From assembly GCA_001599915.1 (NCBI GenBank), contig BCIG01000009.1:726668-790667 (forward strand): a DNA stretch of 64,000 nucleotides, read 5' to 3'. Shown piece by piece: positions 22,740 through 44,108 of this stretch. A program made the position numbers and the translations under genes. Under the pieces are notes generated by a model. The model saw only the letters and a program-made list of their open reading frames with translations. It had not been told where the DNA came from and did not search any database. Numbering within the stretch: position 1 is the first letter of the stretch; every line of letters starts with the position of its first letter. Source of the stretch: Symbiotaphrina buchneri (Eukaryota > Ascomycota > Symbiotaphrinales > Symbiotaphrinaceae).

Positions 22740-24685
22740 TCATGCGGTAACCTCTTTGTCCTCCACATGGCTAGCCTTCGATCCTTTCCCTCCCAAATCT
22801 TCCAGATTGTGCTGGAACTCGGCCGTAGCAATGCTTGCATTACCTAGACGACCCGTATCGAAGATGACAGAGACCTCCTCGATGGTGAGACGCCGGGTCT
22901 CTGGGAAGAAGAAGATGATCAAGACCAGATAGATACAGATAAGCACGATGTAGATGATGTAGCTGCAGCTGTCAGCACTTTGCTCAAATTCATAGAAAAT
23001 CGAGAGGACGTACTATTTCCACGCCAGATGCGCGAGCGCAACCGGATTGACCCACTGATTGAACGCCTGCGCTACGCTTTGCACACTCAGTAGAATACTC
23101 AATCCCTTCAGCCGCATGTGGTACGGTAGGATCTCTGCTCCGTAAGAGAACGGCAAAGGTGTCCATCCAATATCGTAGAAACCGTAACAGATGAACATCC
23201 ACGGCACCGTGGCGATCCCCACCGCATGGTTCTTAGTTTGGGCAAAAGAACCCGAAAGTCCCGTCATGACGATGTACGAGATCAGCATGCCAAGAGTCGA
23301 CACAAGCCAGAGCTTCCTTCGACCAGCACGCTCAGCGTTGACGCTGCCGGCGTACGCCAGAAATAGGTTCCACACAGCCAAACCGCCATTGATGCCAGAG
23401 ATCTCCGTCGGGTCCGTGATGCCCACTAGCTTGAGCACCGGTGACAGGTAGTAGCTGATGATGCCGTTGCCGATCCAGTTGGTGCCGGTGGCCATGGTGA
23501 TGAGCACAAGCAGCCGGCGACGGTTGCCGGGTGTTTTGAAGAAGTCGGCGAATTTGGTCTTCTTGTTCTCTTCTTCGAGCTCAATCACGTAGCAGATCTC
23601 TTCGTATTCGTACTCGACCAGTTCATCTTCGAGATCTCCATTGGCGTGGTACTTCGCGAGAATGGACATGGCCCGCTCTTTCTTATTGTGATGTATAAGC
23701 CACTAAGGGACGGTTGGTTAACTGACTGGTGCAAAGGCTAATGACGACTAAACTTACTCGAGGGCTTTCGGGGATAAAGAAAAGGAAGACAAGCACGACG
23801 CTTGGAGCCATGATCTGGAAGAGACATGGGGCGCGCCACGACCAGTCCGTCGTACCCCATTTGAGGGACCCGACTACAGCGGTAAGCATATGATCAACAG
23901 AAGGAACAGGGGATGGAGCACGTACAGCAGAACCATGCTGCTACTGTAGATCCCACATAGTAGTTGCAGTAGAAGGAGCTAGCCAAGATCGGTCGAAGTC
24001 TCGGATGCGCAATTTCATGGAGCAATGCAACAGCAGTGATCTTGCCGAACGGACCCGCTCCACTACGGAAGACTCTTAGCTGACAGTTTCTATAGAAATG
24101 TATAGCGGACATACCCAATTAAGACACGACCAGCAATGAACATTCCCACGTTCTGCGCGAAGGCATTGATGAAAGCGCCTATGATCAAAATGACGGAGCC
24201 CACGGCAAGAGAAGCTTTTCGACCCCATTTGTCATTGATCATGGAGCTAAGATATGGTGTCCTGCAAGACATTAGCCAGAAGCAATCTGGGGTTTTTGGG
24301 GAATGGTTTACTGACACGATAGCTGGCAAGAATAGACTGGCTGATATCAGGCCAAGGAAACTGCTCTACAAGGGGAAACAGTCAACATCACCATTCCGCT
24401 CCTCGAGTCTTCGCAAAGACTTACACTTGGATTGTTGAAATAGTCTTTCCACTGTGGCATCGCTTGAAGACCATTCAGGAGCGAGGCATCGTAGCCCAGA
24501 TAGAAGACACAGAAGTACAGGCCGACGCAATGCAGGACGTTGACCCGTAGACAGGAGTCCTTCCACCAACTTTCATTCGTATTGTCTGGTTGCAGGGTCA
24601 GTGGCTGTCAGACTGAGACCTGGATGCCTTGTGTCTTACTCCGCAGACGAGCAAAGCTCATCTTGTTACTTGTTTCGCCCCCCAT
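22740..24685 (-). CDS. MFS sugar transporter, hexose/lactose permease type
   Basis: Starts at ATG 24685 (MGGETSNKMSFARLR), then after an intron NESWWKDSCLRVNVLHC and the first helix YFCVFYLGYDASLLNGLQ. Landmarks are NDKWGRKASL (loop 2-3), GRVLIG, PESPR before a charged central loop (VEYEYEEICYVIELEEENKK), ERAGRRKLWL and PETRRLTIEEV near the C-terminus. Seven or so introns, for example near 22965-23010, 23690-23760, 23890-23935, 24075-24115 and 24260-24310. This is the fungal sugar-porter branch often called lactose permease; substrates include disaccharides and monosaccharides. It is divergent from the TfdA-like gene, and their shared promoter carries an element also found before the aldolase and dehydratase. 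That suggests it imports the sugar those enzymes degrade. Confidence 0.88.
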
Positions 24686-25437
24686 GGTGAGCGGTAGATC
24701 CTGACTGACGGGGATGTCGATCAAAGGCGGACAAGGACTTGGCAGCGATGCGTGTGGTTACCCCGGATCCGATCCCCGCGATCATACGACCGGAGGAGGT
24801 GTATTTATCGATGCATGGGGGATGGCAGTTGTCGAGAGCTCGGAATCACTCGGCCGTCTTCGGAATGGCGGTTCTAGTAAAAGTACAAGGAAAACCTCCA
24901 CAACGCAACCCCACATGCCAAGAACCCCGGATCGCTTGGGGATTAGGGCCCCTTGGCTGCTAGGGCTTGCATGGGGCTGTTTAAAGGAATGATTGAAATG
25001 GAACAATGGTCATTGGCTGATTGCTCTCCCCGGGATCCGGCTAAGGTCTCCTACATTCGGGTCCGTTACCAAGCTGTTGGGTTTGGAGAAGAATCTCGGA
25101 ATAAGTGCGGAAATTCGGAATTTCCTTCGGAACCATCCAGGAAGTCTTGTCAGGGTGGCTTAATTCGCTGCTAGTCGCAATCCTCGATATAATTCCGAAT
25201 TGTAAGCTCTTCGGGCGTTCAGGCGCAAGCAGCGTCCTCGGAAGGCCAAAATTCCGACCCGGATCTTCCTGGTTAGCATGGGCATCTTTTGATGAAGGGT
25301 TATTGGGGAACCACCGCGGGGATCCGTCGAGGCCGTCATCCCGAGGGCTGTCTTATTTATTAAGGCAAACGTTGCATAGCCAAACAATCAAGTCATTGGG
25401 ACCTACGATTTACAACTTGAATATCGATCAAGCCATA
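24686..25437. promoter_or_regulatory. Divergent promoter of sugar transporter and TfdA-like gene, rich in CGGAA sites
   Basis: A 752-bp shared upstream region. Between about 25095 and 25250 it holds at least five CGGAA/TTCCG half sites, mostly followed by AT-rich bases (CGGAATAAG, CGGAAATTC, CGGAATTTC, AATTCCGAATT, AAATTCCGACC). Zn2Cys6 factors bind CGG half sites. Confidence 0.6.
25096..25114 (-). promoter_or_regulatory. 19-bp element shared with the aldolase/dehydratase promoter
   Basis: Read on the minus strand: ATTTCCGCACTTATTCCGA. The plus strand at 30767-30785 reads ATTTCCGCACAAATTCCGA. Seventeen of 19 positions match and the CCG spacing is the same. It lies 324 bp before the TfdA-like start and 411 bp before the transporter start. 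Confidence 0.6.
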
Positions 25438-26493
25438 ATGTCCACGACTACGACTTCCACTGCCACTGCTCCACAGCGGCTGATCGCTGTGAAGCCCACA
25501 CCAACATGGAAGCCGCTGAAGATCGAAGGCACCATCCCGGCACCCTTCAAAACGCCGCGGTTCAATCTCGAAGTAATTCCTCTGCACCCAACGTTCGCTT
25601 GTGAGCTGCGCGGGGTCGACTGGAGCAAGCCCATCTCTCCCGAACTCTACGCGGAGATACGTACCATCGTCGACAAATACGGCGTGGTGGTATGCCGCAA
25701 GACGGGCCTCACGGACGAAGCACACATTGAATTCTCCCGCTACTTCGGCGAGCTGGACGATGTGCGCCCGTACCAGCAAGCCGGCCGCAAACACCGCCTT
25801 GCGTACCCGGAGCTGTTTGATGCGGGCAACATCGATCCCGATACCGGAGACGTCGCGCCCTTGACCGCGGCTCAGGTTATTGGGAATAAGGCCAATGAGC
25901 AATTCCATGTCGATTCTTCCTTTAATGCAAGACGCGCCGGCCACTCGCTGCTTCTCGCCCATGTCCTACCTCCAAAGGAACTGGGTGGGGCGACCGAGTT
26001 TGCGGATAGTCGCACCGCCTATGAAGATCTCCCCGAGGAGACGAAGAAGAGGATTGACGGCTTGGTTGCCAACCACTCGCTGTTCCATTCGCGGAAGACG
26101 GCCGTGCCGGAGTACTTCAAAGACATGGACCCCAGCAAGAAAGAGCTATCGAAGCACAAGCTGGTGCAGAAACACGAGCCCAGTGGGAGAATGAACCTGT
26201 ATATTGCCAGCTATGTGCATCATCTGGATGGTATCAGTAAAGAGGAGAGCGATGAGTTGATTACACAGCTCATGGCACATGTACAAAAGCCAAAGTATAG
26301 GTACACGGTCGAGTGGGAAGACGCGGGCGATATGATCATCTGGGATAATACGTCCGTCATGCATAGAGCGACGGGTGGTGCATATGAGGGCAAGTACAGG
26401 AGGGACATGAGGAGGACAACCGTAAAGGATATGAGTAGTACAAAGTTTGGATTGAACGGAGAGGGTGCTGACTGGAGGGTTGGGCTGCCTTGA
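25438..26493 (+). CDS. TfdA-like Fe(II)/2-oxoglutarate dioxygenase
   Basis: Intronless, 351 residues from ATG 25438; the open frame extends upstream but that part is promoter-like. The protein is of the TfdA (2,4-D dioxygenase)/XanA branch of the TauD superfamily. It shows LRGVDWSKPIS near the N-terminus, HVDSSFNARRAGHSLL with the HxD metal pair, GGATEFADSRTAYEDLP, IIWDNTSVMHRATGG with the distal His, and RRDMRRTTV with the 2-oxoglutarate-binding Arg. All catalytic residues appear intact. Known relatives act on aryloxyacetates, xanthine or sulfonates; the substrate here is unknown. Its promoter is shared with the sugar transporter and has the element described at 25096-25114, so it is probably co-regulated with the sugar-acid enzymes. 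Confidence 0.9.
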   Translation: MSTTTTSTATAPQRLIAVKPTPTWKPLKIEGTIPAPFKTPRFNLEVIPLHPTFACELRGVDWSKPISPELYAEIRTIVDKYGVVVCRKTGLTDEAHIEFSRYFGELDDVRPYQQAGRKHRLAYPELFDAGNIDPDTGDVAPLTAAQVIGNKANEQFHVDSSFNARRAGHSLLLAHVLPPKELGGATEFADSRTAYEDLPEETKKRIDGLVANHSLFHSRKTAVPEYFKDMDPSKKELSKHKLVQKHEPSGRMNLYIASYVHHLDGISKEESDELITQLMAHVQKPKYRYTVEWEDAGDMIIWDNTSVMHRATGGAYEGKYRRDMRRTTVKDMSSTKFGLNGEGADWRVGLP

Positions 26494-26573
26494 GTATGGT
26501 AGAGACTTAAGACATCTTTGGAACATAACTGGATCGCTGCAAATATATTCTTGATCTAACATCAAGATGCCCT

Positions 26574-29014
26574 TTATATCCATGGTACACCGTGCCCCGA
26601 GCTTCCCATAGCCGCTTGACCATCCCCATCCCACCACTCCAGCGCTGTTGCTGCGTCGTAAGAAAAGATACCCTGTTCTGTCGTACCCACGCCATCGTCA
26701 CTAATATGTTCATCTGGGAGTCCAAACCCGGCTCCCATCCACTCCATATCGCCATAGCCAAAGAGGTTATCAATATTCGCCGGCACAGCGTTCATGATTT
26801 CTTCCAACCCTGGGCCTCCTGTCTCGCCTTCGACACCATTCTCTTGCTGCTGCAACACGGTTGTCACAACTTGCACGATTTCACGCAACTCGCCGACCGT
26901 CTGTCGTGCTGCAGGCAAGTACAAGGCGAGGTCTTGCAGCATCCCGACGCCGAGGTGGAACGTCTCCGCATAACCACTATGCAGGTGTTGTAGCCCGATT
27001 GGACCGAGAGGCCGGCACAACAAGGTCGCCAGTATGAGAATGGCGCCTCCAAGAGAGGTTACCATGTGAAAGCGGAAGGAGCTCGGGGCGGTGATCTCGT
27101 AAGAGTGCTCTTTGATTTGGTGGATTATTTCAGTGGCGAGCGAGCCGCATAACGCACCGGTACTCTGATCATACGTCAGGGACACCATCATGCGTCGCGG
27201 AAGCAGTAGGCGAAGGTGGGATATGCGCTATCAGTTGCTATCAGTCTTTGAAAGCTGTTCGATGGAAAACTGAAAGTGCCTACCGTTCGAACCAGGAGCT
27301 GCTGACGTGCATGTCTTCGTGATGGCGGCTCATTTGTAGGTAGAAGAGGCATGGTTGGAAGGACTGTATCTGCCCAGTGTTTGATGCGCGCATCAAGAAC
27401 AACAATCTTTTCGTCAATGTTGGTTCCGTTCTTTGAAGCACCCGCGGAGAACACTTCATCCCAGACCTCGCCTGCATGTTTCGCGAATGTCACCATGCAG
27501 GAGAGGAAGATGTTGTTAGAGTGGTCGAGGTCGATAGGAGGAAGGGGCTTGTCTGGACTGAGAGCCTAAATGAAGAATTGTAAGCTGACCATACCACCTT
27601 TGAACTGACCCAGACGTCTTACCTTGTCATTTATCCAAGCAGGTTCATCAACATCAATGTCCAAATTACGCATCCCATAAGGTCTTCCACAGCTCAAGGA
27701 TATGCGTCTATCGACAAAGTACACAGTCCATAACAGCCGCTGACGCATGTGAGCCGAGTATTCGCTGCAACCTGGTCCCCATCTGGATTGCTGATGCAAA
27801 CCAAACTGGAAGCACAGGCGGCAGGCGAGCCCAACAACGTTGTATGCTGCATTTGGCTTGTTGGCATGCATCAGATAGAAGGACTAATCATTAGTATCTG
27901 GATAGGGTCGCATAATTGTATAAGCCATACCTCGAAGACCAGAAATTGAATCAGGCTAAGATCTCCTCGTCCGCTCACTTTCCTCTTCCCAACCAGATCG
28001 TTTGCAGCCAGGAACCATTGCCACCCCGGAAGCTTTGACTTTTCGCCTGCAGGAGTAACATCCACCAGCATATCCGCACAAGCAAAGATGATATAATTCA
28101 AGGCCAAAAAGTACGTCTCGGCTCGATCCACAGTCCGACCGGCAATTAGTCGTTCCGCCTTGGCCCGGAAATCCACCTCATTGATGCAAGGGTGACACGG
28201 GTTGATGTCATCAAAGAAGAAATCCAAATACTTTGCATACTGAGAAGCGGTTGGAAATGGCAGCGTGCGCAAGCCAATACGAATGGTAGCGGCCTGTTCG
28301 CTCACTGATGATGACGGGCTGGCCAAGGGCATGACGTGCGTATCGGCATTAGATGGAGGCGAAGAATTTTGCACACTCGACTCGACGGGTAATCCCAACT
28401 GCAGCTTAACCGGCGCTAGATTTGCATTGAATGCCTCGAGCGGCGCTTGAAATGCTGTATCGCCTTGAAAGTCCTGAGGGTCTTCCTCTGTAGCTTCTGG
28501 CTCGACGCTTGCTCGTGGACTCCAGCCCGGGCGTAGAAACTCGACGAGTGAATGCATGGTGGACTCGAGCCGTTCCATTCGGACTTCCATCCGCTCTTCC
28601 AGGGATGAAGCATTCGATATTGATGGTCGATTGACTGTCGTGCCGTTGTCGTGCAAGGAACCATTTGCGGAGCGGTAGGGGCTACGAAGTACTCGCGGCG
28701 CAGCCCGCTCGTTGATGAAGAAGCATTCTTGATCGTTAAGAACACATCGCTGACATGGTTCTTCTCCAGAGCACTACTATGGTGTGAGCTTACTGAAGCA
28801 CTTGTGATAGATGGAAGGTAGTTGTCACCTTTAACTTGCGTCTGCGGCAGGGGAGGCTACATGTCTCCGTTAGCCACGGCTCTAGAGTCTACAGGGGCTG
28901 CAGGCAGCAGAACACATACCATGCTTTGGTGGTGTACTTCCCTCGCACTTTTCTCCGTGCATGTAGCGCGGGAGTGGAGTCTTGGACTTGTCCATCCTCG
29001 GGGGTAGACATCAT
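26574..29014 (-). CDS. Zn2Cys6 transcription factor, candidate regulator of the sugar locus
   Basis: ATG 29014 (a second ATG at 29011) opens a basic leader, ALHARRKVRGKYTTKA. The zinc cluster is split by two introns: exon 1 ends in TG, exon 2 supplies CLPCRRRKLK, and exon 3 starts CSGEEPCQRCVLNDQEC. A probable coiled-coil linker follows (LEERMEVRMERLESTMHSLV), then the Fungal_trans domain (DFFFDDINPCHPCINEVDF, AYNVVGLACRLCFQFGLHQ, RQRLLWTVYFVDRRISLSCG) and an acidic C-terminus ending SGHGVPWI. Introns also near 27930-27875, 27620-27570 and 27285-27200. It lies between the TfdA-like gene and the aldolase. It is the natural candidate to bind the repeated CGG-type sites in their promoters; this is inferred from position only. 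Confidence 0.88.
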
Positions 29015-29295
29015 CGTTCGTTGTGTTGTATTTCGATTGCGACGATGGTGCGAAGAAGATGCGGGGATGTGCAGGGGAGGGGGGTGCGGGCGCAGGCTAG
29101 ACCCCCCATCGCGCTAGGGTCCATGCCCAGGCAAGACCGGATGACCAATCATATCAATCATTTCTGCACACCCAATTTACCCCAGAACATTATTGAAAAT
29201 CTGATATATTCCTAGGCGGAAATCATCCTGCAAGATATCATACTTTATATTTCACTTAGAGATCGGATGGAGCACCATAACTAATTTGATCGGTT

Positions 29296-30629
29296 CTACA
29301 GACTATTTTCATACTTGTAGATCTTCTCCAGCCCAGTTGTCAATTCCTTGACGACATCTTCGTCTACCTCGGGTAATGGTTTCCTAAACGCTCCTCCTAA
29401 CCTGACACCGTTCATACTCGGGCTGACATGAATATCCATGGCTGTCTTGATGCCCAAGAAACCCTACACAGGTAAGATACTAGGCTTTGCTACGGCGGGA
29501 AAAAGCGTACCACTCTGTTGATGACAGAATCAGCTTCTGTCACGAGATCTTGAAGCTCCTGAGCTTCTTTTAACCTGTGTAGATGATTGTGTCAGCAAAT
29601 TATTACACGAGGGGCGAGTGACGCTTACAAGTTTGCATCGCCAGTAGCAAGTGCCTCTTGTCCGGTCTTGAAGAGTTTGACGCACGTTTTCGGGTAAAGA
29701 TTTGCGCTGACCGTCTGCTCAGTCGATTGGACACATGGATGTGAGGCATACTTACGGGCCACCAATGCATCCGTGTTGCCTCGCCACAAGTACCGGGAGC
29801 ATATAATCCGTGGAGCCAGGCAGGACCAGGAATGGCAAGGGGTGTCTAGCCCTGTACTCCTTTGAATTGACATGTAATGCGACCCGATGTCCTTTCTGGA
29901 TATTGTAGCAGGTCAACTTTACTCCAGCGATGTTCTGGTGCTCCCTTTATCAAGCATCAGCTATGATCAACTCGGAAAAATGTTGGGCGCTGTACGATAT
30001 ATCCATTAAGAAGTCTGCATCGAGATCAATGCCACCTGCGGCGAAGGGTATCTAATGGAATGTTAGCCCCATACCACCCCTAGGTCGTTAAGGACTTGCA
30101 TTGTACAGCAGAACTGGGATCGGGCTTGCATCTGCTACAGAGACGAAGAAGTCCTTCAGCGCAGCCTTGTTCTTTCCAATTACAAACGCATAATACCCCG
30201 GTGCAACCAATATACTGGCTCCAGTCAGCACATATTCCCCTCCTTGGTATAAGTAGGTAGGGAGAGATTGGGACAGCTTGAGACCTACGCAGCATCTGCT
30301 CCACCTTGCGCCGCAACCTTCGCCAATTGAATACTCTCCCTCACGCTTCCGCCCCCGATACCAGAGATAACAGGCACTTTTCCATCAAGACCCTCTGCCT
30401 CGAGCACTTCTTTTGCGGTTTGAACCAGTAGTTTCCGCTCCTCGCGAGAGAGGAGTCCTGCCTCGCCGAGGGTGCCGCTGAGGACGAGTCCAACGCCTGC
30501 ATGTGCGAGACGAGTAACGTTTACACGGAAAGCCGCGAGGTCGATGGACTCGTCGGCAGCGGTGAACGGAGTTAGGACCGGGGCGTAGACGCCCGGACGG
30601 AGGATCGAGGTGTTCGAGAGGGAGCCCAT
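29296..30629 (-). CDS. DHDPS-family 2-keto-3-deoxy-sugar-acid aldolase
   Basis: Class I (Schiff-base) lyase of the DapA/NAL family, the family of the fungal 2-keto-3-deoxy-L-galactonate aldolase of D-galacturonate breakdown. From ATG 30629 it shows GVYAPVLTPFT, the pyruvate-binding loop SGTLGEAGLLSREER, the catalytic Tyr in VLLYNIPFAAGG and the Schiff-base Lys in IAGVKLTCYNIQK, then GCIGGPANLYPKTCVKLF. It ends LEKIYKYENSL. Six introns keep the frame. One, after VLLYN, appears to use a GC donor (GCAAGT at about 30102). It would split a 2-keto-3-deoxy acid into pyruvate and an aldehyde (lactaldehyde if the acid is L-fuconate-derived, glyceraldehyde if L-galactonate-derived). The divergent dehydratase would make its substrate. 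Confidence 0.87.
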
Positions 30630-30974
30630 TGTTAGTACCACCGATGCAAGGCAGCACCTTCCAGAGCCACAGACGTTGTCAATCTTTACAGATGTTCTCC
30701 AACCTTTTGCATATGCGCGCTTTCCCTTTTCGGCTGGATCTGGGCCGGAAAGCGAAGCGGGCCTGCATTTCCGCACAAATTCCGAAATTCCGAGCAGAGC
30801 ACCGACCAATCAAAGCACGACTCTAGTGGCAGCAACTCTTTGGGAAGCTCAGCTCCAGTTACTTCAGTTGCTTCACATGCTCAGGGTCTTTATTGCGAAA
30901 ACTCATTGAGAAAGCTAACTGCCAAAATTCTCAGCACCCGAATTGTCACCTTCAGCACACACAGCTACAACACC
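30630..30974. promoter_or_regulatory. Divergent promoter of aldolase and sugar-acid dehydratase
   Basis: A 345-bp bidirectional promoter. It holds a run of TTCCG half sites with AT-rich spacers at 30768-30791 and a CCAAT box at 30806-30810, the binding sequence of the fungal HAP complex. Sharing so short a promoter implies the two enzymes are expressed together. Confidence 0.65.
30767..30785 (+). promoter_or_regulatory. 19-bp element shared with the transporter/TfdA promoter
   Basis: ATTTCCGCACAAATTCCGA, followed at once by a further AATTCCG copy up to 30791. It differs at two adjacent spacer positions from the element at 25096-25114 on the other strand. It lies 138 bp from the aldolase start and 190 bp from the dehydratase start. 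Confidence 0.6.
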
Positions 30975-32588
30975 ATGGCACCAAAGGAAATAACAATTAC
31001 CGGCTTCACGGTTCCAGACCTGCGTTGGCCCACATCCCTCGACAACATTGGCACCGACCCGATGAACCTCGCTGGTGAGAATAGTTTCGGCTATCTCCAG
31101 TATCAAACGGATGCAGGGCTCGTCGGCACCGGGTGGTCATTTGCCAACGGCCAAGGAAACGAGTACTGCACCTAATACCGTGCCCCATTACCAAGTCCAC
31201 TGCTAACCCTTGCTCTGCCCCTGTCAGCGTCCTCTGTACGGCAATCCGATCACTGGCGCCTCGCTTCGTGGGCAAGACGCTGTCATCGTTAACGTCCAAC
31301 ATGGGCCTCACGCAGCGCAAGCTCGGCTCTGGCCAGATCCGGTTCATGTCGCCGGAGCGCGGGGTGCTGCAGCTGGCGACTTGCGCGGTGCTTAATGCGG
31401 TATGGGACTTGTGGGCCAAGGCTGAGCGGAAGCCGCTCTGGAGGCTGGTTGCCGATTTTTCGCCCGAGGAGTTTGTGCGGTGCATTGATTTTAGGTACAT
31501 CACTGATGTGGTGACGCCGGAGCAGGCGCTGGAGATGTTGAAGGAGACGGCGAAGAGCAAGGAAGAGCGCCTGCAGGAGGCATTGCGCAACGAAGCCGTG
31601 CCAGCGTATAATACGAGTGCGGGTTGGCTGGGGCATTCAGATGATAAGGTATGTGGCAGCCGGGAATCTTCTCCACCGTGCCGCACCATATTAATATTCT
31701 TGTGAACAGGTGAAACAGTTGCTGCAGGAAGCTACGAAGCAAGGATTCCGACATTTCAAGCTGAAGGCAGGGCTGGGACTGGAGAACGATCGAAAGCGAT
31801 TAGGGTTCGTACGCGAGGTTGTAGGCGAAAACGGGGTCCTCATGGTCGATGTCAACCAGCTTTGGGACGTCGACGAGGCAATCGAGTACATGAAACATCT
31901 CGCAGACCTCAAGCTTTGGTAAGTGTCTCAGTAATCCACGACCTAAACCTCCCTAACACGCCCTCTCAGGTTCATCGAAGAGCCAACCTCTCCAGATGAT
32001 ATTCTGGGCCATGCCAAAATCCGCGCGGCACTGAAACCCTACGGCATAGGGGTTGCTACGGGCGAGCACGTCAACAACAGAGTCATGTTCAAACAGCTTC
32101 TCCAAGCCCAGGCAATTGATGCCGTCCAGCTGGATGCGTGCCGTCTGGCGAGCGTCAATGAGATCCTCAGCGTGTTGCTCATGGCAGCAAAATTCGGCGT
32201 ACCAGTCGTTCCCCATTCTGGGTAAGGCCTCCCTCCGCCACTGTCAGACGTGTGGCGTATCTTGAGCGCGTAAGCTGACATTCCGAACAGAGGCGCAGGT
32301 ATGGTTGAGCTGTGCTCACATATCAGTACAATTGACTACGTTGTGGTGTCCGCCAAGCAGAGCATCCTTGAGTACACGGACCATTTGCACGATGCGTTCG
32401 AGGCGCCAGCGAAGATTACGGCCAAGGGCTTTCATGTCACCCCAGCTGTACCAGGCTATTCGTGCGATGTAAAGGAAGAGGAGTTTGAGAAATTCGAATG
32501 TCCTGATGGCACGTTCTGGAAGTCGGAGAAAGGGCGGCAGATGCTTGCGGATCCTTGGAGAGGTGTCCCAGGGGAGCAGACGTCATGA
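30975..32588 (+). CDS. L-fuconate / L-galactonate dehydratase (enolase superfamily)
   Basis: Exons 30975-31162, 31228-31648, 31710-31918, 31970-32221 and 32291-32588 give 455 residues, normal for the family. Of the mandelate-racemase group of the enolase superfamily, closest by eye to human ENOSF1 (L-fuconate dehydratase) and fungal L-galactonate dehydratase. Visible features are [44 protein letters not shown], the KxK base pair in HFKLKAGL, the metal ligands in [25 protein letters not shown] and GVATGEH, and the His in VVPHSGGAG. It eliminates water from a sugar acid to give a 2-keto-3-deoxy acid. L-fuconate is 6-deoxy-L-galactonate, so both substrates are plausible; the GH95-like neighbour favours fuconate. 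Confidence 0.9.
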
Positions 32589-32682
32589 TGATAGTCTATG
32601 ATTACCGCTATAGAGCACCGAATGCGATATGCAATTCCACCTTGTATATTGTTTTGCTGTACCACCTAGGGCGTGCCTCATC

Positions 32683-33913
32683 TTACAACATGACCATTGC
32701 CGAATTAAGAACGCTCATGACGCTCAGGGTGCCCCAGTCACTGCCATTACCAATCTCCCCGAACCAATTCGCTTCGTAAAGGTTCCCATGCCGCGCATGA
32801 CTCTGAATCTGGTCGAAATTGGCTTTGACAAAGGCTGCAATGGTTGCTTGCAATGTGGAGTTGCTGGAATCGCTGACATATAGGTATAGAAGGTTCCGAA
32901 ACAGAACGTCTGATTCAATAATACTGGTCAGCAACCGATCTCATTCGCGGTCATATATAGAACAGGAGTAGGAAGTGCAGAAAGGTTTTACCTCGAAATC
33001 CTGTCAGGTCACTGTTCGTCGTTATATCATCGGCCTCTTCTACTATGAGGTTTGACCCACTAAATGCAGTCGTGCTTGCACTCGTCGCACTCAGCGTCGT
33101 CTGATTGAGATACGTCGTGTTACCCGTGCTTCGCCAGAGGCTCGTCAAAGCTCCAATGTAGACTCCCGTATTATAGGTAAAATCCCCAGCGGCAGGCCCA
33201 CAATCACTGGGGTCCAGATTATCAACTACCATTATCCCCGTCGTTGTATTAAGCATATTTCTCTGGAGATAGCCAAGAGGTGGAAGCGCAGCAGACAAAT
33301 ACGTCGCGTCTCCAGTAATCTCATACAACAGCGCAGATGTCAGCGAAAAGAGCGATGTCGAGATGGCCGTTATCCCTGAGTCCGGGTTGCGATTCCAATA
33401 CACCGCACCGGCCACGTCACAGCCGGCCCGGATAGTCACGTTGCGCTGCACACCGCCTTTATCTGGAGCAGTGCCAGCGTCAGCGGCTGTCAAGACAGAC
33501 GTATTCGCTATCGTGGTCCACAAGCTGATTGCCGTGTTCAGATATGGCTGGCCTCCATAGTTCTTATATGCCCTTAAGAGCGCCAGTATCCACCACGAGT
33601 TATCGTCGTTATACAAGTCGTTCATCTGCAGGCCGGCCATGAGATCCGGGTTGCTTATGATTGTGGAGAAGTCGAAGTCGAAGATGTCGTTGTATAGGTT
33701 GGCCGCTTGCCAGCTCTGCACGTCTTCCCATTGATAGGTCGTGTTGGAGAAGTAAGGAGCGAGAGCGAAGATGGCGGAGCGCGCGATATCGACGTTGGTC
33801 GCGTTGGAGGCGCTGCTAGATGCGTTGGCCTGTCTTGGATGAAGGAACGGGTACCTAGGGAGGCCGAGCGTCGCGCCCGTGAGACAGAGCGCTATTAGAA
33901 TAGAGCTCAGCAT
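32683..33913 (-). CDS. Secreted GH76-like alpha-1,6-mannanase family protein
   Basis: Exons 33913-32992 and 32939-32683 give 392 residues. A signal peptide (LSSILIALCLTGATLG) leads into a GH76-type sequence: WQAANLYNDIFDFD, then NDLYNDDNSWWILALLRAY, which carries the paired acidic residues expected at the active site (Asp-Asp before Asn-Ser-Trp-Trp). VYWNRNPDSG and FTYNTGVYIGALTSLW also match the family. Many N-glycosylation sequons support secretion. GH76 enzymes cut alpha-1,6-mannan; fungal Dfg5/Dcw1 members act on GPI glycans, but this short secreted form without an evident anchor is more like a degradative enzyme. It is tail-to-tail (94 bp) with the dehydratase. Confidence 0.85.
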
Positions 33914-34605
33914 CTTGCGAGAGGGGACGCAGATTGAGTATCTGCCATTCTCGTCGACGAGGCGGAGAACTCAAATTATATCCATTTTTCAGAGTGCGGG
34001 TAATCGCAATTTCCCCAATTGAGGAAAGCAAGGATGTACTCCCCCTCGGGCCGCAGGGATCATCAGCTCCATTGTGGGCATCTGTCAGGGCGGCATGGAT
34101 TGCCATCTCCTAATCAAAATGCGATATCAAAAAGCATGCAACGTTACCTACTCCGTAGAGAGACTTTTGAACGTGCGGAGTGTAGATCTGCCGGCGCTAC
34201 AGGGATCCCGGAATAGCAAAGCCACAGTCCAGGAAGCTAGCAGGGGTTGCCTCTTGGCCTGACTGGAATCTGAAACACTAGTTCTTGCCCTGTTGTTTCT
34301 GATGTCTGCGTGGCCCATGGGGCAAAGTCTGCTGTTGGCTCCCAAAATAAGACTTGAGACGCTGGAAGTTCTCTATCCCATTCATGTGCTCATCAGTGGG
34401 TGCTCTGGATTGCCACGTAGCCCGGTCTCGTTGGTGTTACATGGTAAGGTTGGGCAACTGTGACCGGAACTAGGAATCATGAATTGCCGATAATAGCTCA
34501 GGCACGACTATGGCCATGCACAAAAGTAAAGCGGTCTAGCCCGCTAGCTTTTCGCTGTATGCAGTCTTCTTTCCCGGCAATTTTCTACTATGAAGCTCTG
34601 CTTCG
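33914..34605. other. Intergenic between GH76 and GH35
   Basis: Holds the GH76 upstream region and the GH35 3' flank. No gene is seen. AGTGCGGGTAAT at about 33977-33988 resembles part of the shared 19-bp element, but only weakly. Confidence 0.45.
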
Positions 34606-37600
34606 TCAGTAAGCCCCTGCCCTAGGCGTCCAAGCCGGCATCGGGCTCAGCTCCACAGGCCCATACGCCGTCTTGACCACTGCCGTTGTATTTAGCTGGA
34701 AGCCCGTAAGTCTCGCGCCTCCAGCATCCAGTGCCCACAGCGTGAGAGCGATGAAATTCGTGCCGCGATGGTTCAGAATGCCCTCTGGCACAGGGAATGC
34801 CGTTTGCGGGCCGATGTTGTTGACTGCGGATGGATTGTGGTCAGCGCAATGCGAACTTAGACTTGGAGCATAGAGAAAGGCGGTACACTGGGGAGACAGA
34901 GAGAGGCAGAAACGTACTATATTTTCCGTATTGGTAGCCATTTACGTAGAGCTGACAGCGGTAGTTCGCTCCGCTCGAGGAGTTGGTGAAGACAAACGAG
35001 AGCGGTACGTCCCAGCCCTGCGGAATGTCCAGATCGAAAGACGCACTGCCCGAATTATGGTCAGCTTGCTTATTGTTCTGCCAAACTTCTCGAGAGGCCG
35101 AGACGAACCTATAAAATGCAACACCGGCGCTTGAAATCCCGTCAAACGGGCTACTTGATTCCCAATCCGCGCTTGGCGGAGAGGGTTGGTGCCAGCCCTG
35201 TCGCTCGGCGAACATCGAGCCCTCGTTGAGAGGACCGCGGACACTGTCAGCGTACTCCTCACCGCCGAGGTTGCCGGTAATTTTCCAGGTGACGTCCGAG
35301 TCGGCATGCCCAGTGATGGAGTAGTCTAGGATGCCGCGGGGGTTTTTCATCTATTTCTTGGGGTCAGTAGCTGTCCCATCCTGGCTTTCCACCATCGTGA
35401 TAAAGGGGCACTACTGCTGGCCATATGGACTCACATTATCCAATAGTATAATCCCGTTCTCTTCATTTCCCATATGATCAATCAACACCGTAAGCACACA
35501 TTCCTTTCCGGCCTGCAATGCCGGCAGCGATAGCGTTTGGGTCATATTCGCCGTCACGCTATTCCCGGGCCAGCTCCCCACAAACAGTCCATCCAGCCAA
35601 ACGCTGTGTCCGTACGCGTACCCACCCTGTGTATGCAGCATGAGCGTGGTCTCTTTCCCATTAGCCGTAAAATGGCCACGATACAACAAGCTACCGGTAT
35701 GGAACCCATAGTCACCGCCATACAAGCTCGTTGGCGTGGTCAGGTTGCGCGAGGCTGTGTTGTTCGTGTAGGGCAACGCGGCGGTCGGCCAGGAGGAGTC
35801 GTCGTAGGTGGGCGAGAGCTCGGGCAGGCTGTTGGTGTATTTCCAGGGCAGGGAGGAGAGCACGGGGAGGGCCATGGGTGGGGGATTGAAGGGAAGGCAG
35901 CCGGATAATGCGCCAGTAGTGGACTCGGAGGTGCAGGGTATAGACTCGCCGTTGAAGGAGAGCGAGGTTATACCTGGAGGCGCCCCGATGAGTTCGATGT
36001 CTGTTGTGCAGTTGATGTCGCCCGTTAGAGCAAGAGTGGTCCCGTCAACTCGTGCGGTCCGCATCAGGTACCCGCCTTTGATGATGATGGAGCTGTTGGT
36101 GCTATAGGTGTTATTATGTTCGGGGAGGTGGAGCACCCAGTAGTCGTATGCCGAGTTGCGGTCTTTGAAGGGTCAGACTTGAGATCGCTGTCCCTGTTTC
36201 ACAAGTGACGTACCGAGAATATAAATGTATAGACTGTCGACCTGAACTACGCGCCTGGTAGTGCTGGTGGGAAAGTTCAGGACCGCTGTACCATTACCGC
36301 TACTGATGGACAAATTACATCCTTCGAGGATCCGTGGCTCTGAAACGGTCTTGATTGCAATCTCGTTCGTCTCGTTGGCACCGGTGTAGACGACCAGGAC
36401 GGTTTTCGAACTGTACACTTTCCTGTTGAACTTCAGTGACAAACACCAGAAGTGACAGTAGGAGCAGGTACCATGTAAAGATTTCTGCTGTAGAATACAA
36501 TATCTGGTATGACCCAGCCGGGTAATCAGTGACAATAATCTGGGATTTCGATCAGTGGTTGTCGAAGCAGTCTGTCAACCAGTACGACACCGCTTTACCT
36601 TGGAATCACGTCCATTGAGCATCAACTGACCTCCAGACTGGGGAACAGAAACCACTCCCAAACTCGTCGGCAAATCGATACTATACGGCGTCGCCAGGAC
36701 ACTACTGTAATTGGCATGCCTGACAACCCAAAACGCCGTCTCGCCCTCCCCGCCAACCATCGGCGTGACCGCCACAGCTGGCGTACTGACATAACTCGCA
36801 TTCGTCACATTCAGCACGTCTGCCGTCAAATACGCCGGGCTGACCATCAAGAAGTTTGCCTCCAATTTCAGCTCGCTGTACTTCTCTCGGCTCACGGTGC
36901 GGTCCTCGCGGATGGCCGCGCCATAGTCATAGGAAGTGTATCCGTAGTCGTGGCCCAGGTTGCCCCAATTGGTGCCGCCGTACAGCATGTACAGGTTGAC
37001 GATCTTGGTGCCGTAGCTGAAGACGTTCTTGTTGAAGACTCGCTCGAAGGGCGCGCCGAGCAGGGCGGCGCAGGCGGAGACGCCGTATCCGCCCCAGGGG
37101 TCGAAGGAACCGCCTTGAAACTGTGCATTGTTGTTGTTAGCCATGTGCGACGAGTCGTGTACGACGCTCATCAGCCCTACCTCATTGATGCTATAAGGAG
37201 TGCTGGGAGATTCCTCTTCGTGAACTTGGTGGAAGTTTGTGGGAAGCGCGTTGTCGGGCCAGTAGTCTGGCTGCGCACAATTGAAGCCCCTGTCTTGTAA
37301 GCTGAAGGACGGATTATTTCGGAGGTCTTGGCTGCATACAAGGGATAGCTATCATGGCCATATATATCGACTTCCCCGGTCCTAGACCCAGGCACAAAGT
37401 TGCCGTAGTTCAGCCCGTCGTTGCTAATAAGCGGCACCACGATGCCCGCTTGACGGTATAAGTCCTCAACCTGCTGCATATACTCGGGATCCAGTTTGGT
37501 GCCGTCTTCAGGGTGGCTGTACTCACTGCAGTATTGTCAGTCCATGCATCAAAGCCCAATACTGTGGATTTACTTCTCAGGCTGCACCAGGATGACCGGG

Positions 37601-38353
37601 CCACCATTTGTAATTTGGGCTTCAGCCACGATGGGGCCTATCTTTTCCAAATACCTATCCAACCATAAGTACCATTTATAAAGGGAGCAGGAAAAAGGAG
37701 TTGGTCGACCATACCCTGCACTTGCATTCATGAAATCGGCTGCTGTCGTCCGCAACTTCCCCTTATTCCTCTGCAACCACCCCGGGAATCCACCACCGGA
37801 AGACTCAGCATTGATATACGGCCCGGGGCGCTAACTCCCAGGTCAACGACACGCCCTGTCCCTCGCCCTCGCTGCGCTCCCCAGGATAAAAGGTTCTCAA
37901 CTCACAGCAATAAGATAAATCCCAGCCTCCAGCGCCGCCTGAAAGAACGCCGAGTGGTTTCTCACGCCCTGCGCATTGAAGTCACCTTGCTTGCCCTCCA
38001 GGATTGCCCAGTCTGTGTAGAAGGAGACGGTGTTGAAGCCGAGCGCTTTGATCTTCTGGAGGATGTCGAGCCAGAGGCCTGGGACGGGGAGGCGATAGGG
38101 GTGGAATTCGCCGCTGAAGACCATGACTCGCTCGCCCCGGATGAAGAGCGAGTTGGCGTCCCATGTTACCTTGCAGGGGCCTTGGTCAGTAGTTGGGCGT
38201 ATATGAGGGCTGCGGAAGGCGCACAATGTCCTGCAATAGGTGTTGCCGTTTCGCGTCTTTCAGGTGCAGAGCACTGCGGCCTGGAAAGCAGGCAACTGGG
38301 AAGACCAGCAAAGCCAGTGTCGGCAAGAGGAATACTTTGACTAGCCACATCAT
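34606..38353 (-). CDS. Secreted GH35 beta-galactosidase
   Basis: About 1,000 residues in a dozen or so exons from ATG 38353 (alternative 38350). The signal peptide is [19 protein letters not shown]. Splicing across 38220-38165 rebuilds [13 protein letters not shown], the typical GH35 opening, then [17 protein letters not shown] and [19 protein letters not shown]. The acid/base Glu lies in QPENEYSHPED, rebuilt across an intron at about 37575-37525. The nucleophile Glu is in [15 protein letters not shown], rebuilt across 37190-37135. [18 protein letters not shown] follows. Further beta-domains ([16 protein letters not shown] type, [10 protein letters not shown]) lead to the end AWTPRAGAY. It removes terminal beta-D-galactose from xyloglucan, arabinogalactan or pectin side chains. 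Inner splice sites are approximate. Confidence 0.9.
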
Positions 38354-38912
38354 GACCTTCTGGAATTATGACTTTCGTACGGAACGCAACAGAAGTTTCG
38401 CTCACAGGCATCGTCATTGACCTTCCGAAGCCAATCATATACACACATTCACCGCCATCTGATTTGCTCATCTACCCCGCAACACCCCAACTCTGGGTCA
38501 AGAGATTTACAACCCGATCCCTGTCAGCAGCAGCGCGCTCCGGGTGAGGCATTCGCTAGGGCCAACCTAATGCAGCATAAGGTTCACCGGCACAGTTGCG
38601 GGGTCGCCGGTGACGTCCCCTCTTCCTCCCCTACACTATGTCTAAGTACGCCGAACAAGTGACGGTCCTGCCTTTTGTGGAAGAGCCGAGCTTTGCCGAT
38701 GGCTGGTGTTGGATGGGTGGGATAGAGAAATTGGGGAAGGGACGCTGATTCGAGATGATATACTCGGATGCACGACCATTACGGTCCCAGGGATCACGGC
38801 GTAGATCCATCACCTTCAGGCGAGTTATGATGAGCAGAGCCGAAGTTGAGAGCCAATAACACATTAGTGGATCACTTGTGTGGAGTTGTAGCTGCCCGCT
38901 ATCAACTGCCTC
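38354..38912. other. Intergenic between GH35 and GH95-like genes
   Basis: Upstream region of the GH35 gene. No gene is recognised. TACGGAACGC at about 38388-38397 holds a CGGAA half site; nothing firmer is seen. Confidence 0.45.
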
Positions 38913-41501
38913 TCAAGCTTGACCATACACAACGTCACTCATCCTCGTACTCGGCGTGACCGTCAAACTAGTCATATTCCCGCCGCAAACCTGGCCCTCC
39001 ACAGTCGTATTCATTGGCGCATAGAGCTTAAAGCTAGCCGTCCAATTCGCAGGCCACGCGCCCAACAACCGGATCTGGGTGTTATTGCGCGCGAACGTCT
39101 GCAGCAGCATCTCCTGCAACGCGACCGACGCGACGCCAAAATGGTTGATATCCGGACTCCAATCGAAATTCGGGCCCTTGAAGACCGGGAAGCGGTACGC
39201 GGTCGAGTCGGCCCAGCGGTCGGTGGTCAGGTTTGTGGCGTTGGCTGTGAGGCCCATTCGGGCCAGCCAGATGACGTCTTGTTTCCAGCCTGAGGTATAT
39301 AATCAGCGACATGTTTCTTGCTTGGGAAATGTAGGAACGGGCTTGCAGGAAGTTGCACGTACCGACGTTGTCATGGAAGCTTTGCGTCTCCCAGTCGTAG
39401 AGGTAGGTGTTGATAGCTGTCGTCAGATTGGGCTCTCCGAGTCCATATTCGCCCCAGGGAAACACTGGGTATAGCTGTGGGATCTCGACGTTCTGGATCC
39501 GGGCGTAGGCCTGTGCGGGCGCGATGCATAGATGGCCCTGCGACATACGCAGCGGCGTCGCCGGTACTCTTGCCAGGTATTGCTCGTAGTAGCTCTGATT
39601 GCCAATCACGTACTGCGGAGCCACCTGTAGCAAGTCCCCGAGGACTTTGCGTAAGCCACTCACCGTCGAAGCAGGGTTATACGCAACCTTGTACGTCTCA
39701 CACCCGGAGCCGGGATAGATGATCAGCGGACCGGTCCCGTAGCTGGTGTCGTTGATGGGCTCCGCCATCCGGCTGACGGTGTCGATGCTGGAGTGGAATT
39801 GCTGGTAGAACAGATCGAACCATCGAAGCTGGCTCTCGATGAAGGGAAGGTAGGCCGTGATATCCAAGCCGCTGTACAAGCTCGCCTGAAGGATCATGTC
39901 CGCAAACTCATTGGCCGTATCTTGGATCCACTCCAACCAGCTATTGAATTCAATGCCCTGCGGGAACCCCGGGTTCCTTGTACGATTATACCGGAATTCA
40001 TCGCCCACGTATTCAGCCAGATTGGGCAGCCCGAAGTTGTCCATCTGCTCCGTGAAGACTGCGGCGTCGAGCCCAAAATACGTCAAGCCACGCAGCCGGG
40101 CGGTGTCGGTGATTCGCCGGTAGAACTCGAATGCTGGCCTCATTAGATCGAAGTCGCCGCTCTTTAGCAACGGCCAATACACCAAGCGCTGGTTTTGTGC
40201 CGTGAAGGTGCCGCCCGTCCACCGCCGGAAATCTGGCGTGTATGGAGTCGCGTTGTTGACAAAGTACGGATCGAAGGTAAAGAGACCGCCGTTGAAGCGC
40301 ATTGGCCATTCGCTCCGGGCGTTGCAGGCTTGCATGTATCGGAAGATCTGATAGTTGCGGCCTACGATGAACCCAGGGTCAGTCGGACCGGCAGCTTCGT
40401 TGATGATGATATATGATTTATCCCATAGCGCGTGCCACCAGTTCAATGTTGCCTCTTGAGTAGTGTTCCAGGTAGTGGTAATGACGTTCTGGAACTGATC
40501 CTGGAAGTCTGCGAATGCGGCCGTCTGATTTTGGTGCACAGCAATACTGAGAGAATATGAAGTTTGAGGTGTTGAAGAGACGAGGTTCCATGCCTGAAAG
40601 CTGGTGTTCACGTAATGTCCAGCAGTTATATTTCCTGGCAGGAGCTCCGGACTATGCATCCAAAGGCCATACTATTAACTGATTAGCCACATCGCCAAAA
40701 GATGATACAAAGTACGTACGGTGTTGTTTGCTATTGGGTTATACATTGCGGCAGCATGCTGACCAAGCCCTTGTTGATCGACCGTATAATCGAAAACCGT
40801 CTGTTCCAGGTTTCGATGCGTCATCATCACGCCGCCATTTTGGTAGGTGATATTGTCTCCACGGGTAGTCTCGTTGATGCCCGGAAGCACATTCCACGAA
40901 GACTGATCTGTGTCGCATAAGCAGGATGACTTCCTCTCAAACAAATGCTTTACCTTGCTCAGGCACAGTCCCGGAATTCCCCAGCGGCCGATCCTGAGCC
41001 CTCCAGCTCTCATACGCCGCTGTCAAAGACAGAGGTTGCGAACTACTGACATCGACATGGACCACTGGATTCTCCACATCGACCCATAATCTCACGGAGG
41101 CATTCCCCTCGCCTGTTATGAGCATGTACCCATCATTGAGCACCAGAGTTTGTGAAAAAGCCTTGGCGAAGGGATTAGGAGTGAGTACTAAACGTACGCG
41201 GCCTAACTTCACTAGGGAGTTGTTGTCGTCAAAGGCTCCGCTCTTTGCGACGTAGAATAAGATGGTATCTGTAACTATATCAGAAATTGTGCCAATGGCT
41301 CATCTGTATTCCGATTTTACCGTTTTCTGTCCAGACGTTTAAACCGAGATCGCCGCCTCCAAGTGGCATGGAGGCTGAGGAGTCGGCGCTTTGGGTGGTC
41401 CATACTACGTTGTATGAGTCGGGAAGAGTCACTGCAGTTACGAATCGTTGTAGCAAGCAGGATGCTGCCAGACCGAATATCATGCACGACTGCAACATCA
41501 T
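38913..41501 (-). CDS. Secreted GH95-like six-hairpin glycosidase, candidate alpha-L-fucosidase
   Basis: ATG 41501 (second ATG 41498) opens a signal peptide (CMIFGLAASCLLQRFVTA). The N-terminal beta-domain reads YNVVWTTQSADSSASMPLGG and, after an intron, ILFYVAKSGAFDDNNSLVKL; this is the type I know as DUF5703, found on GH95-related proteins. A large (alpha/alpha)6-type catalytic part follows: WWHALWDKSYIIIN, NGGLFTFDPYF, RRWTGGTFTAQNQRLVYWPL, QGIEFNSWLEWIQDTANEF, IYPGSGCETYK, then AGWKQDVIWLARMG and a C-terminal beta-domain ending DVVYGQA. Introns lie near 41315-41270, 40950-40880, 40705-40665 and 39360-39295. GH95 enzymes release alpha-1,2-linked L-fucose; other galactosides are possible for this subgroup, so activity is inferred. 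Confidence 0.75.
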
Positions 41502-42106: not shown

Positions 42107-43639
42107 CTAAGCCAGCAGCCTTTTAGAAATACGGATAGGCATGTCCCCGGGACTGCATGTAAAAGCTTCAAAATGCGGCAGCTCCCAGTCGGGCGATAGC
42201 AGCTCGAACTCATAGCGATGGACAATGGTCGCGATGACCACTGTCTGCTCCAGATACGTAATGTTGCGTCCGATGCAGCCTCTGGCTCCAGCACTGAACG
42301 TCAGGAAATATTGCTGTAGGTCTTTTGAGTCCTCCTGCAGCCAGCGCTCAGGCCTAAAGCTCTCAGGGTCCGGGAAGATGTCCTTATTGCGATGCATCGT
42401 GTATGGCGGACAGTGGACGGTGGTGTTCCCCGGAATCCACTCGCCCATGATATTGAGACCCTCCTCTGGAGTCTTTCGAGGCACGCTCATGGTGTTTGGG
42501 GGGAATATCCTCATGCTCTCGTCGAGACACGCTCTCAAGTAGGGTAAATGCTTGACCTTATCGTACGGTGCCACGATGTCTTGGCGATCGAGGACGGCAT
42601 CCAGCTCTTTGCGCAGGGTGTCCAAGCAGATTGGATTCTTGATGAGCAGGTATATGGCGTTGGTCAAGGCAATTCCAGTGGTATCACTGCCGGCGTTCAT
42701 CATGATCGAACATTCGGCTGCGATCTCCCCCATCGGAAGCATGTTAGCATTGCCATATTTGTCTTCCATGAGGAACGAGAAGAAGTCATTGAGTTTCTCT
42801 CCGGCTTGATATCGTCCTAACCTCCGACGAGCTTGATATATGACAATGTCATCAAACGCGAACTTATCGACCCAGAACGGATGCCATGAAGAGATCTTCT
42901 CCAGTAGAGAATACCATTTTGTCGAGAAGGAAAGAGGTGATTGGATTCGATGGCCGAGCCACAAAGATCTTCTGTAATGCGCTTTGTATTTTCTGCCGTC
43001 AAGTGTCTCAATCTCAACGAGATCATCACCATTTTCCAACAACCGGAGACCAGCACTTAACCCGATCTCGTTAATTGCGTCGATGGAAAATAAGTTCATC
43101 CAGAATCGGTGATCCAACCACTGGTCCGCTTCTGGCTTCTTGGACAGCGACGGCACACATAACCGGTCATACTGTGCGACCAGCGCGGCTGTCCTGTCAG
43201 CCACGATGTACTCCCAATGCACGATAGACGACTGCGCGAATGCTCCGGCCAAGACGCGTCGCTTCCGGGAGTGCTCGGCCCGGTCCTGGACGTCTGCCAA
43301 ATGTCGGTGGGTCCCGGAAATGGCACCATAAAAGTCGTCTTTGAGCGCCGGTGTTCCGTGGCCGTATATGGCTCTCACGGCTGCAATATCATTGAAGGAG
43401 ACGGCATTTGGGCCAGTCCGGACGATCTTATGCTTCTTGTGGGCCTCATACACGACTTTGTATCTGATCCCGCGAGCCGTTGCGAGCATGAACGGGATGT
43501 TGGTGATGCCTGCTAGAGGGCTCATGGCGTGGAAACGCCGAAGCCGCTTGGGATCTCGCACATAGTCATACAGGGGCTTGACGACGAAGTACAGAAGCAA
43601 TGCAAGAGTGCATGCTGCCGCAAATAGAGGTCCTAACAT
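42107..43639 (-). CDS. Cytochrome P450, CYP53-like (benzoate para-hydroxylase relatives)
   Basis: Intronless, 510 residues from ATG 43639. Anchored in the ER by an N-terminal helix (LFAAACTLALLLYFVV). All P450 landmarks are intact: I-helix oxygen-activation motif NAGSDTTG, K-helix ESMR, FRPERW, and heme-binding FSAGARGCIG with the Cys ligand. The segment AIYGHGTPALKDDFYGAISG with DRAEHSRKRR matches the CYP53 benzoate 4-hydroxylase group by eye. It is likely to hydroxylate a small aromatic acid or similar phenolic; the exact substrate is not visible. It is divergent, 469 bp away, from its probable redox partner, an NADPH-P450 reductase paralog. Confidence 0.9.
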   Translation of the reverse strand: MLGPLFAAACTLALLLYFVVKPLYDYVRDPKRLRRFHAMSPLAGITNIPFMLATARGIRYKVVYEAHKKHKIVRTGPNAVSFNDIAAVRAIYGHGTPALKDDFYGAISGTHRHLADVQDRAEHSRKRRVLAGAFAQSSIVHWEYIVADRTAALVAQYDRLCVPSLSKKPEADQWLDHRFWMNLFSIDAINEIGLSAGLRLLENGDDLVEIETLDGRKYKAHYRRSLWLGHRIQSPLSFSTKWYSLLEKISSWHPFWVDKFAFDDIVIYQARRRLGRYQAGEKLNDFFSFLMEDKYGNANMLPMGEIAAECSIMMNAGSDTTGIALTNAIYLLIKNPICLDTLRKELDAVLDRQDIVAPYDKVKHLPYLRACLDESMRIFPPNTMSVPRKTPEEGLNIMGEWIPGNTTVHCPPYTMHRNKDIFPDPESFRPERWLQEDSKDLQQYFLTFSAGARGCIGRNITYLEQTVVIATIVHRYEFELLSPDWELPHFEAFTCSPGDMPIRISKRLLA

Positions 43640-44108
43640 TGTCGATGTGATCACTGTCGCTCCCTGTTAATATTTCTCTAGAGAAGTGTAAGTCTTCTCG
43701 GCTTGCAATATAATTGCCCGTTGTATAAGCCCAAGTCATTCTCGCATGACCAAAGCCCTGTCGCACTATTATTGGACTAACACTGTAACAGGGTGTGAAT
43801 AATCAAAATATGCCAGAAACCCCTCAACCTGCATTCGGACGTCATTCGATATGCAGTGGAACGAATGGGGTCATCACGGTGGGGGGATATTGCTCAGATA
43901 GGTAACTTCGCTCCATGTGGTAATTTCGGTCATTTGACGTTGTTCGGAGGCGGCGCATATTCTCTCAACCGTGCGCACGTTCCCCAGTGGGCCAAACAAT
44001 CAAGACCGTCCCAGCCGGCGCAAGGTATGTCGATATCGGAGGTCTATAATGAAAGTCCTCGGAGACTCAGCGTGACGAACTGAGTATCGACCATTTCACA
44101 ACACCGCG
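43640..44108. promoter_or_regulatory. Divergent promoter of P450 and P450 reductase
   Basis: A 469-bp shared upstream region suggesting coupled expression of the monooxygenase and its electron donor. No specific site is recognised with confidence. Confidence 0.5.

Follow-up and report, generated by a model that had tools for sequence, protein, structure and literature searches.

Eight genes at positions 22740-41501 of a 64,000-nucleotide stretch of Symbiotaphrina buchneri DNA (the window, by which we mean the whole stretch analysed) are described here, among them a glycosidase, a dehydratase and a dioxygenase that may together serve the catabolism of a methylated sugar. Its contig, C9, is one of 82 in a genome of 23.4 Mb. 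The region was read from stop to stop and splice sites were modelled, giving gene models that are computed, not transcript-based. All eight genes that a sequence-only reading had placed in this interval are confirmed there: the spliced models are free of in-frame stops, their introns are GT-AG apart from a single GC-AG intron modelled for the aldolase, and a profile scan gives Pfam domain support for each product. Six of the earlier gene labels are kept and two change, a "GH95-like" glycosidase becoming a GH139 and an L-fuconate/L-galactonate dehydratase moving to a FucD-like clade of its own.

The leftmost gene encodes a major facilitator superfamily sugar porter (22740-24685, minus strand; 8 exons in the model, start codon uncertain; PF00083, E 2.1e-73), which matches the TIGR00879 sugar porter profile at E 9e-66 but, with 222.5 bits, falls under the cut-off of 237.8. 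By the gene models it shares a divergent promoter region (24686-25437) with a single-exon AAD/TfdA-like Fe(II)/2-oxoglutarate dioxygenase (25438-26493, plus strand; TauD, PF02668). A Zn2Cys6 regulator of 720 residues follows (26574-29014, minus strand; 6 exons; PF00172, Zn_clus, and PF04082, Fungal_trans, the latter at residues 224-473); a second such regulator (15110-17140, minus strand; Zn_clus E 1.5e-14) lies to the left of the cluster. The second divergent pair, around a common promoter region at 30630-30974, consists of a DHDPS-family aldolase (29296-30629, minus strand; 7 exons, 336 residues; PF00701, E 9.2e-35; best PDB match 3QFE, E 2.8e-35) and a FucD-like enolase-superfamily dehydratase (30975-32588, plus strand; 5 exons, 455 residues; MR_MLE, PF13378/PF02746). 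These two family matches support the earlier proposal of a dehydratase and aldolase of the non-phosphorylating type; further aldolase paralogs occur elsewhere in the genome. Three glycosidase genes complete the cluster in tandem on the minus strand: a GH76 of the alpha-1,6-mannanase family (32683-33913; 2 exons; PF03663, E 4.7e-25), a GH35 beta-galactosidase (34606-38458; 13 exons, start codon uncertain; PF01301, E 1.6e-85) and a GH139 of the 2-O-methyl-alpha-L-fucosidase family (38913-41501; 5 exons, 783 residues).

The last of these had been taken for a GH95-like enzyme acting on fucosylated xyloglucan. Its product instead matches DUF5703_N (PF18961, E 5e-99); the GH95 N-terminal domain PF14498 has no match at E 0.001 either in this protein or in a six-frame reading of the whole genome, and on this domain evidence we reject both the GH95 identity and the xyloglucan target. 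The sole PDB matches at E values up to 1 are 9HYQ (E 1.8e-179, residues 29-779) and 9HMB, the GH139 structures of PMC12282258. According to that report, GH139 is mechanistically related to GH95, which accounts for the earlier label; more than 90% of the sequences counted there belong to Bacteroidota and about 7% to Ascomycota; and the family member BT0984 acts on alpha-1,2-linked 2-O-methyl-L-fucose, showing no activity on 4NP-fucoside but cleaving its 2-O-methyl form. BT0984, which is 9HYQ by its residue numbering, is 46% identical to the window protein (335 of 724 aligned). Eleven of the 12 active-site residues named in PMC12282258 are identical (F378, W403, Q411, N412, W490, E561, N639, E641, W683, D723 and N729 in BT0984 numbering), those of the catalytic acid, the base, the -1 subsite and the O-methyl pocket being kept; the twelfth, W162, is not aligned and is described there as 45% conserved in the family. 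Activity is not universal in the family: a soil homologue in the same paper, which lacks the catalytic acid, showed none. The window protein retains this residue. By its sequence, then, the window glycosidase is a member of GH139. Its N-terminus resembles a signal peptide, and the enzyme is apparently secreted. It is the only GH139 found in this genome, and no literature was found under the name DUF5703. GH29 fucosidase matches (L105, L106 and L107) lie elsewhere, on contigs C1 and C24, so the fungus may still free plain fucose; one of the three has stops when read without introns and another sits at a contig end.

The neighbouring glycosidases also carry N-termini resembling signal peptides. 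The GH35 protein matches 5IFP, beta-galactosidase A (E 0), and is thus near the ordinary beta-galactosidases of fungi; the GH76 protein matches the alpha-1,6-mannanase 4BOJ (E 2.6e-15), with the NDD stretch aligning weakly, in a second stretch. In rhamnogalacturonan II (RG-II), a pectin component of plant primary cell walls, the rare sugar 2-O-methyl-fucose caps a galactose, and GH139 followed by GH35 is therefore a sensible order of attack. A fucosidase-type glycosidase adjoins a beta-galactosidase, and the general idea of a cluster for sugar uptake and breakdown is supported.

The dehydratase had been proposed to act on L-fuconate or L-galactonate. Its best solved relative is ENOSF1 (4A35, presumably the human protein; E 1.5e-133), and alignment to it reveals the KxK, D, E, E, D and H elements that we take to be the catalytic motifs of the enolase superfamily. 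FucD-family membership therefore stands; placement with the canonical fungal LGD1/GaaB enzymes does not. Homologues of the dehydratase, the GH139 and the dioxygenase were drawn from the best 120 of 8000, 5080 and 1143 matches, respectively. Among the 120 dehydratases there is a gap in identity, from a sparse set at 68-87% to an LGD1/GaaB-type set at no more than 60%. In an alignment of 28 sparse-set proteins plus the window enzyme (29 in all) with 88 canonical fungal sequences (P0148, P0149 and P0155 belonging to neither set), 51 diagnostic positions, at which either group is at least 85% fixed, separate the two. Trees built on subsets of the listed clade members (22 dehydratases and 21 dioxygenases, each plus the window protein) place the sampled sparse-set dehydratases and the window enzyme in a separate clade, outside the canonical one, with support of 100/100. 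Tremella mesenterica has a further dehydratase, P0148 (M231_07904), which falls in the same clade on a long branch and lies away from the linked gene pair described below.

Of the 51 positions, 42 were compared with ENOSF1 and with 4IP4, presumably a bacterial protein, the nine C-terminal ones being left out. At 16 of the 42 both outgroup proteins keep the canonical residue, so it is the clade that changed. These clade-side changes include Y36N, T55S, W102F, I103M and G104S; position 60 is Gln in the clade and basic in ENOSF1, 4IP4 and the canonical set. Residues 16-36 and 55-60, which we take to be the specificity loops of the superfamily, would line the pocket. Contig C13 carries a GaaB-type paralog that has the canonical motifs TFTIGRGN and LRWIGPEKG and could serve the plain L-fuconate/L-galactonate route.

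The dioxygenase belongs to the AAD group of the TauD/TfdA family by domain (PF02668), fold and ligand residues. The TauD/TfdA fold is that of the best among five predicted models; mean pLDDT was 63-69 for the remaining four. H157, D159, H309, R322 and R326, which we take to be the metal and 2-oxoglutarate ligands, are invariant in 23 sequences, the window enzyme included, and also align to 5BKE. The modelled fold suggests that the enzyme oxidises a carbon adjoining the ether oxygen of a small carboxylate. A second TauD/TfdA-family piece (10535-11287, minus strand; PF02668, E 2.9e-23) lies further left in the window, close to open frames near 6877-8462 that look by eye like sugar carriers.

The strongest new result is the recurrence of the dioxygenase beside the dehydratase in other fungi. 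Linkage was read from contig sizes and from gene numbers in protein names, the contig shown for each protein cluster being the longest. Among the matches listed, clade members of both enzymes lie on contigs of the same size in 11 of the 13 species found in both lists. In the five of these whose names show gene numbers, the numbers of the two genes differ by 1-3: Exophiala spinifera (PV08_09533 and 09536), Cladophialophora chaetospira (H2200_002018 and 002021), Saxophila tyrrhenica (LTR77_006165 and 006163), Recurvomyces mirabilis (LTR78_003214 and 003212) and Tremella mesenterica (M231_02381 and 02382). Identical contig sizes link the pair in Elsinoe australis, Xylogone, Aspergillus lucknowensis, Penicillium herquei, Nemania abortiva and Rhizodiscina lignyota. 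In Exophiala and Cladophialophora two gene numbers lie between those of the pair, which would fit the order dioxygenase-regulator-aldolase-dehydratase of the window. Because the pair recurs across fungi, the dioxygenase, to which the sequence-only reading had assigned no role, is not a bystander, and the pattern suggests that it is the conserved neighbour of the dehydratase. Conserved gene order, whose absence the sequence-only reading had named as grounds for abandoning its proposal, is thus seen for this pair, although not for GH139.

These observations lead us to favour, at a probability of roughly 0.38, a catabolic cluster made of two parts: a core for an ether-blocked sugar acid and a GH139/GH35 release module, with 2-O-methyl-L-fucose as the likeliest substrate and the dioxygenase as its demethylase. 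The core (carrier, dioxygenase, regulator, aldolase and dehydratase) would handle a fuco- or galacto-configured sugar acid that needs oxidative unblocking. In the release module, GH139 would free 2-O-methyl-L-fucose, and GH35 then galactose, from RG-II-type chains. We infer the substrate, the demethylation and the order of the subsequent steps as follows. Imported 2-O-methyl-L-fucose would be oxidised by a putative dehydrogenase to 2-O-methyl-L-fuconate; the enolase-superfamily enzyme would remove the 3-OH; the O-methyl group, before or after this dehydration, would be hydroxylated by the 2-oxoglutarate dioxygenase and lost as formaldehyde; and the aldolase would cleave 2-keto-3-deoxy-L-fuconate to pyruvate and lactaldehyde. 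The dehydratase family would require an aldonate with a C2-H and a C3-OH, and GH139 would supply 2-O-methyl-L-fucose, so that 2-O-methyl-L-fuconate is one molecule that would suit the dioxygenase, the dehydratase and GH139 alike. Such a pathway would need a demethylase because dehydration of the methylated acid would give a 2-methoxy enol ether, which yields no keto acid until the methyl group is removed; the smaller residues of the dehydratase clade would be compatible with action on the acid in its methylated form. A broader proposal, which we consider doubtful, is that ascomycetes and basidiomycetes possess an undescribed pathway for O-methyl-deoxy-sugars in which an AAD/TfdA dioxygenase demethylates a 2-O-methyl aldonate or enol ether alongside a re-purposed FucD-like dehydratase, wired in this fungus to GH139 and to the 2-O-methyl-L-fucose of RG-II.

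Several results weigh against the demethylation pathway. Two of the 13 species, Meredithblackwellia and Elasticomyces, have no common contig for the pair, the gene numbers in Elasticomyces (LTR17) being as far apart as 019328 and 000271. Two other species are listed with both GH139 and the pair: in Rhizodiscina lignyota these are on different contigs; in Recurvomyces mirabilis they are tagged from different assemblies, so linkage is not judgeable; and Tremella has the pair with no GH139 among the best 120 matches. GH139 may thus have been added to the core locally, or may adjoin it by coincidence. None of 80 bacterial dioxygenase loci (kept of 163 confirmed, several of them ended by contig ends) contains a dehydratase or aldolase homologue at E 1e-5. 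Neither of two bacterial GH139 loci contains a dioxygenase, dehydratase or aldolase homologue at E 1e-3, GH139 having been found in 2 of 397 genomes of one bacterial family and in none of 6 genomes of another set. We know of no place for GH76 in RG-II breakdown, and the RG-II apiosidase domain PF13204 was not found in this genome. ENOSF1 or 4IP4 has the same residue as the clade at 13 of the 42 dehydratase positions compared, and plain L-fuconate as substrate would require no altered active site. A common Zn2Cys6 promoter motif was sought and rejected: the best pattern, CGGN17CGG, occurs in 4 of 6 promoters, a maximum over all patterns that 56 of 200 shuffle sets reach, and promoter k-mers of 7-10 have counts no higher than shuffles also attain.

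The alternative that survives best, and that we regard as a serious possibility although not a probable one, is that the core degrades some other ether-blocked or similar sugar acid unrelated to fucose, with GH139, GH35 and GH76 merely adjacent in this species. It would account for the lack of GH139 linkage to the pair among the matches listed, for the changed dehydratase loops, for a GH76 out of place in RG-II and for the presence of both clades in basidiomycete yeasts, where linkage of the pair is seen in Tremella alone. Against it, a thematic coincidence would be needed to place a GH139 about 6 kb from a FucD-family dehydratase, and no alternative substrate is indicated.

We consider it unlikely that the cluster follows the plain L-fucose (or D-galacturonate) route first proposed for it, with the dehydratase acting on L-fuconate and the dioxygenase in a side role. 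The FucD-family dehydratase and DHDPS-family aldolase are those such a route would use, and in PMC12370193 Trichoderma reesei is proposed to use LGD1 and LGA1 for L-fucose under the XYR1-like regulator FUR1. However, the dehydratase here lies in a separate clade with a GaaB-type copy elsewhere, GH139 stands in place of GH95, and the regulator differs in length and domain position from FUR1, which is given there as 876 residues with its domain at 474-594. That chance alone, in a genome so dense with genes, assembled everything around the dioxygenase-dehydratase pair seems less probable still: the missing promoter motif and missing GH139 linkage would agree with it, whereas the divergent gene pairs, the common sugar theme and the recurrent core argue otherwise. 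Finally, demethylation by the cytochrome P450 adjoining GH139 (42107-43654, minus strand; p450 domain) with the neighbouring P450-reductase-like protein (44429-46324, plus strand; flavodoxin, FAD and NAD domains), the dioxygenase doing something else, is conceivable in principle from these domains and from bacterial 6-O-methyl-galactose use (PMC10033563) and would count against a demethylating dioxygenase, but is very improbable given that the P450 has weak and heterogeneous matches in the PDB (best E 3.2e-26) while it is the dioxygenase that recurs beside the dehydratase.

Other features of the window flank the cluster. Beyond the reductase-like gene an open frame (46692-47357) has no Pfam match. 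To the left, two short-chain dehydrogenase/reductase genes (18995-21202) are present by Pfam, as the sequence-only reading had noted, yet its suggestion that they supply the first oxidation finds no support, since neither is linked to fucose by any result: in the PDB the left one best matches 4FGS, a "probable dehydrogenase", and alcohol dehydrogenases, and for the right one the comparison was confined to Pfam. An alpha/beta hydrolase (17818-18409, minus strand), considered there as a lactonase candidate, is probably broken, as that reading held, being a short open piece likely continued in another frame. Positions 1-5366 hold long low-complexity open frames rich in Ser, Thr and Ala on both strands, perhaps a repetitive surface protein.

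In the literature searched we found no described fate of RG-II 2-O-methyl-fucose after its release, and the open-licence literature yielded no description of the dioxygenase-dehydratase pair or of 2-O-methyl-fucose demethylation; nor did we find a function for the pair, which recurs from ascomycetes to Tremella. If the pair demethylates sugar acids, the TfdA/AAD group would gain a new role, and its herbicide cleavers might gain a natural context.

Several elements of the cluster have known counterparts from which they depart. Bacterial BT0984 shares the catalytic and pocket residues of the window GH139, which is fungal, apparently secreted, differs in the unaligned W162 and has an activity predicted from sequence. 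The dehydratase has its family and catalytic motifs in common with LGD1/GaaB, ENOSF1 and bacterial FucD, but differs from LGD1/GaaB in its identity of at most 60% to the 88 aligned canonical fungal members, in its 51 diagnostic positions and in its linkage to a dioxygenase. Fungal fuconate dehydratases are reported in PMC10481521, which gives no dehydrogenase or lactonase homologues. The system that T. reesei uses for L-fucose, with FUR1, FDH1, GH95 and the proposed enzymes LGD1 and LGA1 (PMC12370193), shares with the cluster a dehydratase-aldolase logic, a fucosidase and a regulator, whereas the window has GH139 for GH95, another dehydratase clade, an additional dioxygenase and a regulator whose architecture differs in size and domain position. 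The P450-based demethylation of 6-O-methyl-D-galactose in marine bacteria is likewise an oxidative loss of a sugar methyl ether, although enzyme class, sugar and organism all differ. The AAD-2/TfdA aryloxyalkanoate dioxygenases are 34% identical to the window enzyme in structural alignment; in contrast to these herbicide cleavers, its natural substrate is likely a sugar acid.

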